The notes below the pieces were generated by a model, which did not search any database, had not been told where the DNA came from, and worked only from the letters and a program-made list of their open reading frames with translations. The position numbers and the translations under genes are program-made. From positions 1 to 36,092 of the forward strand of contig CANIWM010000062.1 of NCBI GenBank assembly GCA_947471505.1: a stretch of 36,092 nucleotides of DNA, given 5' to 3'. This document shows positions 15,077 through 33,142 of this stretch, piece after piece (within the stretch, counting starts at the first letter, position 1; each line of letters begins with the position of its first letter). The DNA is from Chthoniobacteraceae bacterium (lineage in GTDB: Bacteria > Verrucomicrobiota > Verrucomicrobiia > Chthoniobacterales > Chthoniobacteraceae).

Positions 15077-16750
15077 ATGATTGAAATGAAAGAACTGCTC
15101 GCGAAGTCCATGCGCGACTTCAAAGAGGGCAGCATCGTAAAAGGAACCATCCTTGAAATCCGCCCGCGCGAAGTGCTGGTGGACATTGGATACAAGAGCG
15201 AAGGCGCAATCCCAGGCAGCGAATTCGATGACCTCGAAAATCTCCAAGTCGGAGACGAAGTCGAAGTCCTCCTCTGCCGCCTCGAAAATGACGAAGGCAT
15301 GGTCGTGCTCTCCAAAGAGCGCGCCGCAGCCAAGCAAAATTGGGAGAAAATCGTCGGCGTGTTCAACGCAGGCGGGCTCATCAAAGGCAAAGTCAAGGGC
15401 TCCGTCAAAGGCGGTCTCCTCGTCAACATCGGCGTCGAGGCATTCTGCCCCGGCTCACAAATCGACATCGTCCCACCCAAGGATCTTACCGGATTCGTCG
15501 GCAACACCTACGAATTCAAAATCGTCAAACTCATGGAGGACCGCCGCAACGTCGTCCTCTCCCGCCGCGAAATCATCGAGGCCGAGCGTAGCGAAAAACG
15601 TGGCGCATTCATGGCCACGAAGAAAAAAGGCGACACCGTCAAAGGCATCGTCAAAAACCTCACCGACTTCGGCGCGTTCGTCGATCTCGACGGCATGGAC
15701 GGTCTCCTCCACATCACAGACATGACGTGGGGCCGCCTCAACCATCCTTCCGAACTGCTCAAGGTCGGACAGGAAATCGACGTCGTCATCCTCGACATCA
15801 ACATGGACAAAGAGCGCATCTCCCTCGGTCTCAAGCAGACCCAGCGCAACCCGTGGGACAAAATCGAAGAGCGCTTCGCAGTCGGCTCGAAAGTCAAAGG
15901 CAAAGTCACCAACCTCATGCCCTACGGCGCATTCGTCGAACTCGAAGAAGGCGTCGAAGGCCTCATCCACGTCTCCGAACTCTCATGGACCAAGCGCATC
16001 GCTCGCCCGAGCGACGTGCTCACCATGGGCCAGGAACTCGAAGCAATCGTCCTCGGCGTCAACAAAGACGAACAGAAGATCAGCCTCGGCGTCCGCCAGC
16101 TCGAGACCAATCCTTGGGACGCGATGGAGCACAAGTATCCAATCGGCAAAACCGTCAAAGGCATCGTCCGCAACCTCACCGCATACGGTGCGTTCGTGGA
16201 ACTCGAAGAAGGCATCGACGGCATGGTTCACGTCTCCGACATGAGCTGGACCCGCAAGATCAACCACCCATCCGAGCAGGTGAAAAAGGGCGACGAAGTC
16301 GAAGCAGTCGTTATCGACATCGACAAAAACGCCCAACGCATCAGCCTCGGCATGAAGCAAATCGACGAAGACCCTTGGAAGGGAATCGAGACGCGCTACA
16401 AGATCGGCGACAAAGTCAAAGGCACCGTCACCAAGCTCGCCACCTTCGGCGCGTTTGTGCAGCTCGACGGCGACATCGACGGCCTCGTCCACATCTCCCA
16501 GCTCCGCGAAGAGCGTGTGGAGAAAGTCAAAGACGTGCTCAAAGCCGGCGACGAAATCGAAGCCCGCGTCATCAAAGTGGACAAAGGCGAGCGCCGCATC
16601 GGCCTCTCGATCAAAGCAGCGAACTACAGCGAAGAAGACATGCGCAAAGAAGCCGCAGCCTTCGACACCGCAATCAAGCCCGGCGAAGACCTCGTCGGCC
16701 TGGATCAAGCGTTCGCCAGTGCATTCGAGGACTACCGTCCCGGCCAATAG
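15077..16750 (+). CDS. rpsA: 30S ribosomal protein S1
   Basis: 557-residue protein, the same length as Escherichia coli S1. It recruits mRNA to the 30S subunit and is especially relevant in lineages with weak Shine-Dalgarno sites, as here. Six S1 RNA-binding domains start at about residues 18, 100, 185, 270, 357 and 444. Domains 3-6 carry the standard K-G-x-V-x-x-x-x-x-x-G-A-F-V pattern and a G-L-x-H-[VI]-S or T core; domains 1 and 2 are more divergent, as usual for the ribosome-binding end. The gene stands alone, divergent from the ArsR-methyltransferase gene, and ends in a strong hairpin terminator at 16780. The leader (14878-15076) has no clear Shine-Dalgarno site but holds two small palindromes; S1 autoregulation in E. 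coli works through leader hairpins, so this is worth noting but unproven. Confidence 0.97.
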   Translation: MIEMKELLAKSMRDFKEGSIVKGTILEIRPREVLVDIGYKSEGAIPGSEFDDLENLQVGDEVEVLLCRLENDEGMVVLSKERAAAKQNWEKIVGVFNAGGLIKGKVKGSVKGGLLVNIGVEAFCPGSQIDIVPPKDLTGFVGNTYEFKIVKLMEDRRNVVLSRREIIEAERSEKRGAFMATKKKGDTVKGIVKNLTDFGAFVDLDGMDGLLHITDMTWGRLNHPSELLKVGQEIDVVILDINMDKERISLGLKQTQRNPWDKIEERFAVGSKVKGKVTNLMPYGAFVELEEGVEGLIHVSELSWTKRIARPSDVLTMGQELEAIVLGVNKDEQKISLGVRQLETNPWDAMEHKYPIGKTVKGIVRNLTAYGAFVELEEGIDGMVHVSDMSWTRKINHPSEQVKKGDEVEAVVIDIDKNAQRISLGMKQIDEDPWKGIETRYKIGDKVKGTVTKLATFGAFVQLDGDIDGLVHISQLREERVEKVKDVLKAGDEIEARVIKVDKGERRIGLSIKAANYSEEDMRKEAAAFDTAIKPGEDLVGLDQAFASAFEDYRPGQ

Positions 16751-18260: not shown

Positions 18261-18265
18261 TGCGC

Positions 18266-18407
18266 TCAAGGAGCGGCGACATTCTTGTCGCTGTCCTCAA
18301 CGCGCGAAGCGCCTGATCGGAAAACCGTGCAGTTTCCGAGAGTCGCACGAAACGGATTAGGCGCTACGCGCTATGGTTACAGCGACAGGAATGTCGCCGC
18401 TCCTTGG
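18266..18407. repeat. REP/MITE-like palindromic element
   Basis: Two 27-base arms, 18268-18294 and 18379-18405, are inverted copies with a single mismatch; each contains GAGCGGCGACATTC. The interior continues the pairing: GCGAAGCGCCTGATC near 18304-18318 answers GGATTAGGCGCTACGCGC near 18355-18371. The whole ~140-bp unit can fold into one long hairpin. It lies between two convergent genes (rhlE and the cNMP-binding gene), a typical place for REP/BIME or MITE elements and for a bidirectional termination function. No coding capacity; no second copy was seen in the window. Confidence 0.85.
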
Positions 18408-18420
18408 GCTTCGCCTCTGA

Positions 18421-29759: not shown

Positions 29760-31673
29760 ATGCGCACGCACATCATCACCGTCCTCGCCTGCATCGCCTG
29801 CATCGGCATCGGCTGGAGCATCGGGCGGCTCGGGGGAAATGAACCATCCCTCGCAGACTCACGCCGCCCGAACGCTGAAGCCGCCGCCGCCAGCAGCGCA
29901 TCCACCGCGAACGACCCCGAGGCCGCTGGCATAGACCCCGCCACCAAAACAGGCCGCGCCCTTTCCTCCCTCCTCGCGGCCTCGCGCCAGACAAACTTCT
30001 TCTTTCGCCTCCGCGACATCGCCCTCGCCGTCAACCAGCTCGGGCCCGACGACATCAAGGCCGCGCTCCAATTTGCCAAACGCTCCAAGCGCGAAGAATC
30101 CCGCTTCCTCATCCCCATGATCATCAGCCAATGGGCCAAGCTCGATCCGCGATCCGCCGCCGAGTATTCCGTGGGCGAAAAGAGCGGTGGGCAGCGATGG
30201 GAGCGCGAGTTCTCCATCAGCAGCAGTGCCACCGAATGGGCTCGCCGCGACCCCACCACCGCAAAAGCGTGGGCGCTCGCGCTGGAGAGCCCCGGCGACC
30301 GCCGCACCGCCGTCGCAGGAGTCGCCGCTGGGATGCTCGCCGCCGACCCGAGCGGCGCATTCGCCTGGCTCCAATCCCTCCCCGCCGAGAGCCGCAACGC
30401 CGAGAGCTACGGGCAATTCTTCCGCGACTGGAGCGCCACCGACCCCATCGCCGCATCGCAAAAAGTCCTCTCCCTTCCCTCCGGTGAACTCCGCACCCGC
30501 AGCATGGCCGAGATCGCCGGGCGCTGGGCCGAGAGCGACCCCGACGCCGCCCTCCAATGGGCCCGCACCATCGGCGAAACCGGCGGGCGCAACCGCTCCC
30601 TCGCCACTATCATCTCCAAGTGGGCCCTTACCGAGCCCACCCTCGCCGCCGCCGCCGCCAAAGACCTCCCCGCAGGCGACCTCCGCACCGAAGCGTTCGC
30701 CAACATCATCTCCACCCTCGCAGACAAAGACATGGACGCCGCACTCGCGCTCGCCAACGAGCACCTCACCGGCGTCGCCCGCACCGCCAGCCTCCGAGAA
30801 GCCGCCCGCCGACTCTCTTATCAAAACCCCAGCGCCGCAGCCACCTTCTCACTCTCCATCCCCGAGGGAGCAAACCGCAACGAAGCCATGGCAGAGGCCG
30901 TCCGCCGCTGGGCCACCGAGTCCCCCGCAGACGCCATCGCATTCATCCAAAAAAACATGACCGACAACCCCACCCGCGACGCCTCGATGAACGCCGCCCT
31001 CGAAGGCTGGGTGAACATTGACCCCAAAGCCGCGCTCGATTTTTCCATGAACTCCGGCAACACCAAGCCCGACGACATCACCCGGCGCGTCACCGCCTGG
31101 GCCTCGAACGACCCCACCAGCGCCCTCGCTTGGGCCAAAGGGCTCAGCGACAGCCCGGCCAAAAACAGCGCCATCGCCGGTGCCGTCGGGGGCCTCGCAC
31201 TCACAGACCCCGAACGCGCCATGCCCCTCGTCACCCCGCAGCTCCTCGGCAGCATCTCCGACGACGCCCGCCGCGCCCTCGGCAACATCATCGCCAGCAA
31301 ACTCGAACCCACCAACGCCGCCGACTGGGCCAGCAAACTCGCCGACCCCTTAGCCCGCGAAAGCGCCTACCGGACGACCGGCGAGACCTGGGCCAAAGCC
31401 GACCCCGTCGCCGCCGCCGCATGGCTGGAGAAACTCCCCGAAGGCCAAGACCGCGACTGGTCCACCGCCAGCTACGCCCGCGTCGTCCAAAGCACCGACC
31501 CCGAAGGCGCAGCCGCCTGGGCCAGCACCATCCGCGACCCCAGAGAGCGCGAAGGCGTCATCACCGACGTCACCCGCAACTGGCTCAACAGCGACAAAAA
31601 AGCCGCCACCGCCTGGCTCCAAGCCACCACCGCCCTCTCCCCGGAAGCCAAAGCGCGCCTCCTGCCGAAATAG
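29760..31673 (+). CDS. Exported helical-repeat protein with ~16 W-A-x-x-D-P units
   Basis: 637-residue protein with an N-terminal signal or membrane anchor (residues 1-23) and a long alpha-solenoid. About 16 units of ~32 residues recur, each with a consensus W-A-x-x-D-P-x-x-A-x-x-W followed by a turn such as L-P-x-G-x-x-R. Clear copies include W-A-R-R-D-P, W-A-E-S-D-P-D-A-A-L-Q-W-A, W-A-S-N-D-P-T-S-A-L-A-W-A and W-A-K-A-D-P-V-A-A-A-A-W-L. There is no enzymatic motif. It follows the VanZ-like gene by 12 bases, suggesting one operon with the sugar transferase and a scaffold role in polysaccharide assembly (inference). DNA is very C-rich at third positions. Confidence 0.82.
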   Translation: MRTHIITVLACIACIGIGWSIGRLGGNEPSLADSRRPNAEAAAASSASTANDPEAAGIDPATKTGRALSSLLAASRQTNFFFRLRDIALAVNQLGPDDIKAALQFAKRSKREESRFLIPMIISQWAKLDPRSAAEYSVGEKSGGQRWEREFSISSSATEWARRDPTTAKAWALALESPGDRRTAVAGVAAGMLAADPSGAFAWLQSLPAESRNAESYGQFFRDWSATDPIAASQKVLSLPSGELRTRSMAEIAGRWAESDPDAALQWARTIGETGGRNRSLATIISKWALTEPTLAAAAAKDLPAGDLRTEAFANIISTLADKDMDAALALANEHLTGVARTASLREAARRLSYQNPSAAATFSLSIPEGANRNEAMAEAVRRWATESPADAIAFIQKNMTDNPTRDASMNAALEGWVNIDPKAALDFSMNSGNTKPDDITRRVTAWASNDPTSALAWAKGLSDSPAKNSAIAGAVGGLALTDPERAMPLVTPQLLGSISDDARRALGNIIASKLEPTNAADWASKLADPLARESAYRTTGETWAKADPVAAAAWLEKLPEGQDRDWSTASYARVVQSTDPEGAAAWASTIRDPREREGVITDVTRNWLNSDKKAATAWLQATTALSPEAKARLLPK

Positions 31674-31684
31674 GAGCCACCCGC

Positions 31685-31774
31685 CTTCAACAATCAACAA
31701 TCGGAGTTCAGCAATCGACAATTTGATCAATGGAAGATTGCTGATTGCTGAACTCCGATTGTTGATTGTTGAAG
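31685..31774. repeat. Perfect 32-bp inverted repeat
   Basis: Arms 31685-31716 and 31743-31774 are exact reverse complements, with a 26-base spacer that itself holds the palindrome TTGATCAA (31723-31730). The arms are built from short AACAATC-like blocks. It lies 11 bases after the helical-repeat gene and 30 before the MFS gene. The downstream arm is not followed by a T-run, so it is not a standard terminator. No repeat elsewhere in the window. Confidence 0.9.
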
Positions 31775-31804
31775 TTCCCCCGCGCCGCCGCTACGAACCC
31801 GCGC

Positions 31805-33142
31805 ATGGCGCACTCTACTCGTCCTCGTCTCTCCTTTTGGCAAATCTGGAACATGTCGTTCGGCTTTCTGGGCATCCAGTTCGGCTGGGGGCTCCAAATG
31901 GCGAACATGTCGCCCATTTACAAAATCCTCGGGGCCGACGACAGCACTCTGCCCTACCTCTGGCTGGCAGGGCCGCTCACCGGGCTCCTCGTCCAGCCGC
32001 TCATCGGCGCGATGAGCGACCGCACTTGGACGCGACTCGGGCGGCGGCGTCCGTTTTTCCTCGTGGGGGCGATTTTGTCTTCGCTCGCCCTCATCGCGAT
32101 GCCGCATTCCAGCAGCGTATGGATGGCGGCGGGGCTGCTGTGGATTCTCGATGCGAGCATCAATACGACGATGGAGCCGTTCCGCGCATTCGTGGGGGAT
32201 AAATTGCCGGAGGACCAGCGGACGAGCGGGTTCGTGATGCAGAGCTTTTTCATCGGCGTGGGGCAGACGGTGGCGAATGCGATGCCGTGGTTTCTCGGCA
32301 GCTACATCGGGGTGAAAGGGGCGACGGCGGCGGGTATCCCGCTCACCACGTATTACTCCTTCCTGCTCCGTGCGATGGTCTTCCTCATCGCGGTGTTGTG
32401 GACGGTATTTAAGACGACCGAGGAGCCGCCAGCGGACCTCGAATCGTTCCGCCGAGAGAACGCCTCGAAGGGCGGACTGATGGCCGGGTTTGCAGAAATC
32501 CCCACCGCCATCGCGGAGATGCCGCGCACGATGAAGCAGCTCGCGGTGGTCCAGTTCTTCACATGGTTCGCATTCCCCTGCATGTGGCAGTTTTTCGGCA
32601 TCGCAGTGGCGAAGCACGTCTTCCATGCAGAGAGCGGCTCGCCGCAATTCACCGAGGGCACGGAGTGGGCGGGGCTGTGTTTCGCGGTGTATAATGTGGT
32701 GTGTTTTGCCGTCGCATTTCTCATCCCCGTGGTGGCCAAATCGCTCGGACGCAAAACCACCCACGCGCTCTGTCTGGTCTGCGGTGGCATCGGCCTGCTG
32801 GGCGTGTTCGTGTGCAAGACGCCGTATTCGCTTTGGCTCCCGATGGCGGGCGTGGGCATCGCGTGGGCGTCCATTTTATCGCTCCCTTACGCCATGCTCG
32901 CAGGGGCGATTCCAGGGCACCGGATGGGCGTTTACATGGGCGTGTTCAATCTCTTCATCGTCCTCCCGCAAGTCGCGATGAGCTTCATCATCCCCCGGAT
33001 TTACAAAGGTGCTCTCGGCAATGATCCGCGCAACGTCGTCATGCTCGGCGGCATCATGCTCCTCGTCGCAGCGGCCAGCGTGTTCCTCGTGGAAGACAAA
33101 GGCGGAAGTGAGGTGAGCGCAAGCGGCGGAGGGGGCCACTGA
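31805..33142 (+). CDS. MFS sugar transporter, sucrose/maltose (GPH/SLC45) type
   Basis: 445-residue transporter with about 12 membrane helices. The loop after helix 2 reads [13 protein letters not shown], the G-R-R-R-P-F signature of sucrose/maltose-type symporters. Proton or sodium symport of a disaccharide or oligosaccharide is the likely role. Start at ATG 31805, beginning M-A-H-S-T. Its stop is one base before the sulfatase gene, so the two form an operon. Confidence 0.88.

Follow-up and report, generated by a model that had tools for sequence, protein, structure and literature searches.

A low-copy palindromic repeat with seven-base arm units behind stop codons in two related verrucomicrobial genomes

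The palindrome and its setting

The window, the whole stretch of 36,092 nucleotides analysed here, comprises positions 1 to 36,092 of contig CANIWM010000062.1 (C62) in assembly GCA_947471505.1; its genome is denoted G000, and other C numbers are likewise contigs. A palindrome lies there between two plus-strand genes. The upstream gene (29760–31673) encodes a protein of 637 aa, in which no Pfam family was found at E 1e-5, and its TAG stop stands 11 nt before the palindrome. On the other side, the palindrome ends 30 nt ahead of the ATG of an MFS transporter gene (PF07690; 31805–33142, plus strand), the first gene 3' of it, which is followed by a sulfatase gene (PF00884; 33144–34625, plus strand). 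The first-pass annotation had described a perfect 32-bp inverted repeat in front of transporter–sulfatase genes, and we recovered exactly this arrangement, with arms at 31685–31716 and 31743–31774 that are 26 nt apart. When mismatches are permitted, the arms extend to 38 nt on the plus strand (left, 31685–31722; right, 31737–31774), are 95% complementary and enclose a 14-nt loop (31723–31736), in which the previously noted spacer motif TTGATCAA occupies 31723–31730. The ends of the palindromic element read CTTCAACAATC. The short recurring blocks that had been remarked on in the arms follow a period of 7 nt, the left arm being built of the units CAATCAA, CAATCGG, AGTTCAG and CAATCGA.

An inverted repeat of this kind goes far beyond what chance would produce, in line with the argument made at first pass. 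When the window was shuffled 30 times with dinucleotides preserved, the best arm score was 14, compared with 32 observed, and 600 kb of shuffled genome yielded one hairpin with an arm score of at least 14. When the strand was folded, positions 31670–31800 reached -65.1 kcal/mol (z -10.4), and none of the shuffles (0/200) was equally stable.

Homologous copies in the genome

A 22-nt arm word, allowed up to three mismatches, was searched genome-wide with the reversed pattern as a control. It gave 13 matches, compared with 0 for the control, and these map to seven places (C62, C68, C76, C7, C22, C104 and C24). BLAST with the whole element returned the identical seven places and a second copy on C104. 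The genome-wide arm search proposed in the first-pass annotation therefore shows that the window repeat is not unique but has several further copies. Short-word single matches at C1, C16, C23, C32, C68:23449, C101 and C115, where there is no matching palindrome, and weak BLAST matches on C79, C23 and C122 were left out of the copy count.

Five of the copies are full palindromes (C62 in the window, C7, C22, C104a and C104b). C68 and C76 each carry two half-copies arranged inside-out around a spacer of ~36 bp, and C24 is a half-copy. Since C68 has 158 bp in common with C76 at 96% and 205 bp in common with a site in the related genome G006 at 97%, the inside-out form is a repeat in its own right. 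Eight copies could be aligned over arms and loop with a mean column identity of 88%. The loop of the window copy is homologous to those of the other copies when read on the minus strand, and the window copy is oriented opposite to the C7 copy. Homology running through both arms and loop points to spread by copying and makes a separate origin at each site unlikely. As in MITEs, several homologous, non-coding copies of less than 200 bp are thus found at unrelated sites. Most copies end in CTTCAA/TTGAAG, and the whole element is an inverted repeat, so that terminal inverted repeats are present. The arms share a central GGAG block at C62 and C22, while at C7, C104a, C104b, C68, C76 and G006 C50 the central block is unlike between the arms.

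Presence and absence in a sister species

A stricter word was present in two of the 57 genomes searched, the window's own and G006, a Prosthecobacter debontii MAG (isolate ZE-13nov19-293) that is a congener of the window genome. G006 carries copies on C50, C44 (two), C118, C117 and C109; the pair on C104 and the copy on C22 are common to both species. A pattern scan of genome contigs matched 19 stretches, among which L164, L165, L166, L179, L180 and L181 showed similar stems, judged by eye, on folding. Several others (e.g. L167, L170 and L172) consist of the word alone, with no palindrome to match, and were not taken as relatives. A viral scan gave one stretch, L182, in which a clear matching stem was not seen.

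The two species differ in which sites are occupied. G006 C13 carries the same two genes as the window site (89% and 94% identity) without the element between them. The empty site that the first-pass annotation had looked for in relatives thus exists, but the two genes are not cleanly joined there. About 20 other bases are present in the short spacer, and the site may be the remnant of a deletion. In the opposite direction, G006 C117 carries a shortened copy (69 bp) between two genes that abut in G000 C34, TAA then ATG; of the insertion/absence pairs, this is the cleanest. By eye, ACACATG flanks the G006 C117 copy on both sides and may represent a target duplication, and no consistent target-site duplication was found at the other sites. 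At the position of the C7 copy, G006 has a different hairpin, made of ATGACGA units, in place of the family element. Presence and absence at orthologous sites (C62/G006 C13 and G006 C117/G000 C34) is a further MITE-like property. The idea of a mobile-element remnant, raised at first pass, therefore comes close, with the amendment that the element is a dispersed palindromic repeat, polymorphic for presence between the species.

Taken together, these observations make it likely that the inverted repeat of the window is a member of a dispersed, non-coding palindromic family of low copy number (~90 bp, with 38-nt arms and a loop of ~14 nt), copied as a unit into gaps behind stop codons in this and the sister species. 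What we directly observe is the homology of arms and loop, the dispersal, the sister site without the element, the clean absence here of the sister's insertion, the period-7 arms and the position behind stops.

Position behind stop codons and a possible role in RNA

All seven distinct full sites lie shortly behind a stop codon, at a distance of 11 nt (C62), 22 nt (C7), 13 nt (C22), 7 nt (C104a), 8 nt (C104b), 3 nt (G006 C50) and 16 nt (G006 C117). Here, G006 C117 is counted as a full site despite its shortened 69-bp form, the stop at C104b is the end of a low-scoring ORF, and the gene upstream of C22 was missed by the simple gene caller and has a strong Pfam match. Because the gaps are short, proximity to a stop is partly unavoidable; the chance that all seven would lie near one is ~0.02 by our own estimate from gap lengths, made without a tool. 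Partial copies break this pattern. The genes flanking C68 and G006 C109 are divergent, C76 stands at a distance of 42 nt from a stop, and the C24 half-copy overlaps a predicted ORF.

This placement raises the question of whether the element is a functional 3'-end RNA element, a terminator or a 3' stabilizer, that is selectively kept wherever it is located. Besides the position behind stops, the extreme stability of the hairpin and the replacement of the C7 copy in the sister by another hairpin would fit such a role. However, no T-run accompanies the element, although the genome does have T-tailed hairpins. No intrinsic-terminator-like site was found in 31500–32000, in keeping with the missing T-run noted at first pass, and no promoter-like site was found in the same interval. 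A classical intrinsic terminator, with a G+C-rich stem and a T-run, was accordingly rejected. Covariation, assessed by pair counts on the copy alignment, did not exceed chance (283 of 500 shuffles were equally high), which leaves selection on RNA structure without support, and in the sister the site orthologous to C62 is without the element. A search of Rfam 15 gave no family above the gathering threshold and only microRNA and sRNA models below it; a known Rfam RNA was accordingly rejected. The first-pass annotation had held that the same arms at many terminators would mark an ordinary termination hairpin. The arms do recur behind stops, yet no T-run follows them. At two sites (L196 and L200) a related heptad hairpin, of the ATGACGA type, stands beside a classical T-tailed hairpin that is upstream of it and separate, so that at these sites it is not the heptad hairpin that acts as terminator. 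On balance, we regard selective maintenance as a 3'-end element as unlikely, while an RNA function as such would be plausible from position and stability.

Mobility and origin

A second alternative is a REP or REPIN moved by a Y1 (RAYT-type) transposase of the genome. Nine Y1_Tnp matches are present, the inside-out pairs of half-copies at C68 and C76 recall BIMEs, and the GGAG block recurs in many arms. The association expected of such a pair was nevertheless missing: the CAATC word, with one mismatch allowed, was absent from all eight of the nine Y1_Tnp loci that were examined with flanks of ~1.5 kb, and a RAYT-borne REP was rejected on this test. The half arms show, by eye, no REP-type internal hairpin. 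Within ~1.5 kb of the Y1_Tnp loci L184, L187, L188 and L190 lie hairpin repeats of other, G+C-richer families without period 7, as expected of RAYT–REP pairs. We thus consider movement of the window family by a RAYT quite improbable. No autonomous parent element or transposase with the family's ends was met among the copies and loci examined.

The window itself contains a second large inverted repeat at 18264–18409, G+C-richer and with 55-nt arms that match at 84%. A similar sequence is present at L081:1-127 (C76), and since a similar hairpin lies near the Y1 transposase match in L187, this repeat may belong to a REP-type family.

A local origin of each hairpin, through slippage by 7 nt and template switching, would account for the period-7 arms and for the one heptad by which C104a and its G006 ortholog, C44a, differ in length, but it is very improbable given that arm words and loop are shared by descent at unrelated sites. 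The shared loops disfavor these processes as the sole origin, although the arms may still be shaped by them. An operator or a recombination site was also suggested at first pass, and the position upstream of the MFS–sulfatase operon would fit an operator or invertible site serving it. Such a role is very unlikely, since the genes that the element follows elsewhere are unrelated (sulfatase, M19 peptidase, GFO/IDH/MocA oxidoreductase and sodium:solute symporter), the settings are tandem and convergent, and the sister has the same MFS gene without it.

Proposed behavior of the element and relation to known repeats

The element is not an operator, and it is not an ordinary terminator either. In the best reading, it belongs to a new low-copy family of MITE- or REP-like small interspersed repeats with an unusual seven-base build. 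We propose that this dispersed repeat moves, or moved, in trans and non-autonomously, like a MITE or REPIN, and that the gap behind a stop codon would be a place where it is tolerated. Transcribed together with the upstream gene, it would fold into a hairpin of great stability, which is probably a block to 3' exonucleases or a target of cleavage by RNase III, and either effect could loosen the coupling of the upstream gene to the MFS–sulfatase genes. The near-perfection of the window copy may stem from the identical central GGAG block in both arms, perhaps acquired by template switching between them, a known process that homogenizes stems, as described in part of PMC8794818.

Small interspersed repeats, as excerpts of two papers portray them, are shorter than 200 bp, encode no protein, contain inverted repeats, are intergenic and have a predicted effect on co-transcribed genes (PMC2229807; PMC3049150). 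On these partial accounts, the window family resembles the bacterial MITEs (Correia/NEMIS, ERIC, RUP; BOX, SPRITE) in its size below 200 bp, lack of a protein, inverted repeats, intergenic location and predicted influence on genes transcribed with it, but it has neither TA ends nor an established target duplication, its copies are few and its arms consist of 7-nt units. REP, REPIN and BIME elements (GTAG and CGTC superfamilies), known from a verrucomicrobium according to passages of PMC3733652, are described there as extragenic palindromes with inverted halves, which the window family also is. In contrast to them, it has much longer arms, shows by eye no tetranucleotide-tagged internal hairpin and does not lie near the eight Y1 transposase loci.

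Seven-base words are known from two further settings. In the portion of PMC4476775 that deals with it, the P6b stem of the Nostoc tRNA-Leu intron is composed of repeats of TDNGATT or of NNTGAGT, one kind taking the place of the other. The window family is alike in make-up, with a stem of 7-nt motifs, GATT-type words and one class of motif replaced by another; P6b is described as a variable stem-loop within an intron, whereas the window family consists of free-standing dispersed copies. TAACTGA repeats, reported in part of PMC4679880 from Beggiatoaceae, Cyanobacteria and Bacteroidetes, are similarly intergenic, 7 nt long and contain TGA, but they are direct repeats before start codons and not hairpins behind stops. 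According to a survey cited in the same excerpt, heptanucleotides outnumber every other class in the majority of genomes.

Literature searches (Prosthecobacter inverted repeats, and repeat words in full text) gave no description of the repeat, and the word matches look unrelated by title and abstract. Cyanobacterial STRR repeats are a further case for comparison. To our knowledge, small interspersed repeats have rarely been described outside Proteobacteria, streptococci and Cyanobacteria. Being polymorphic between two close species, the family allows direct comparison of sites at which a hairpin between operon genes has been lost, gained or replaced, and its heptad arms offer a handle on why long stems and 7-nt repeats go together.

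Other hairpins with seven-base units

Hairpins with an arm score of at least 14 were surveyed in 1.236 Mb of the genome (the window and 60 stretches). The survey yielded 56, six of which have period-7 arms, two of these belonging to the family of the window element. The other four consist of GTGATT-type or ATGACGA-type units and are unrelated to it in sequence. In a post hoc comparison, five of the six period-7 hairpins lay no more than 25 nt behind a stop, compared with 7 of the 50 others (Fisher p 0.0011); with the window family removed, the figure was three of four (p 0.017, likewise post hoc). In 400 kb of three congeners, more period-7 hairpins were found; two have a stop 7 and 10 nt away, and one has only starts in its vicinity.

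GTGATT-type hairpins are likewise dispersed as a family, matched many times in the window genome and G006. Heptad hairpins of this type at L248:16520, L238:13343 and L203:6212 lie 5–12 nt 3' of stops, and the L248 hairpin is part of a dispersed family that has numerous matches in G006 but few in G001 and G005. TGA is enriched among the distinct intergenic period-7 units (14 of 23, 5.7 expected; 0 of 2000 permutations), although units of the same family are not independent. The idea that period-7 units serve as stops in all frames found no support: stop codons of all kinds occurred in 16 of 23 units with 13.2 expected (p 0.10). It is conceivable, if speculative, that there is a wider class of heptad stems over several phyla: dispersed hairpins made of 7-nt words, mostly with TGA (TTGATTG, GTGATTT, ATGACGA), that lie behind stops, can replace one another at one site and have a make-up akin to that of the heptad stems in the Nostoc tRNA-Leu intron.

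Other repeats were encountered as well. Hairpins at L202:10221, L243:13630, L243:169 and L231:19251 have an arm period of ~10, with CGCAGATT, CGCTAATC and CGCTAAAA units. The hairpin CAAGGAGGGGGAACGTCCCGTTCCCCTG, with a loop of ~50 nt, recurs at L225:5888, L232:69, L209:17241, L235:14053 and L206:4643 as a separate dispersed family. One intergenic stretch, L198:3663-3975, carries three near-identical CAGCCGAGAATCTCGGCTG hairpins. Within the window, internal repeats of ~360–600 bp with 66–69% identity occupy 15629–16504, inside a 557-aa ORF (15077–16750).
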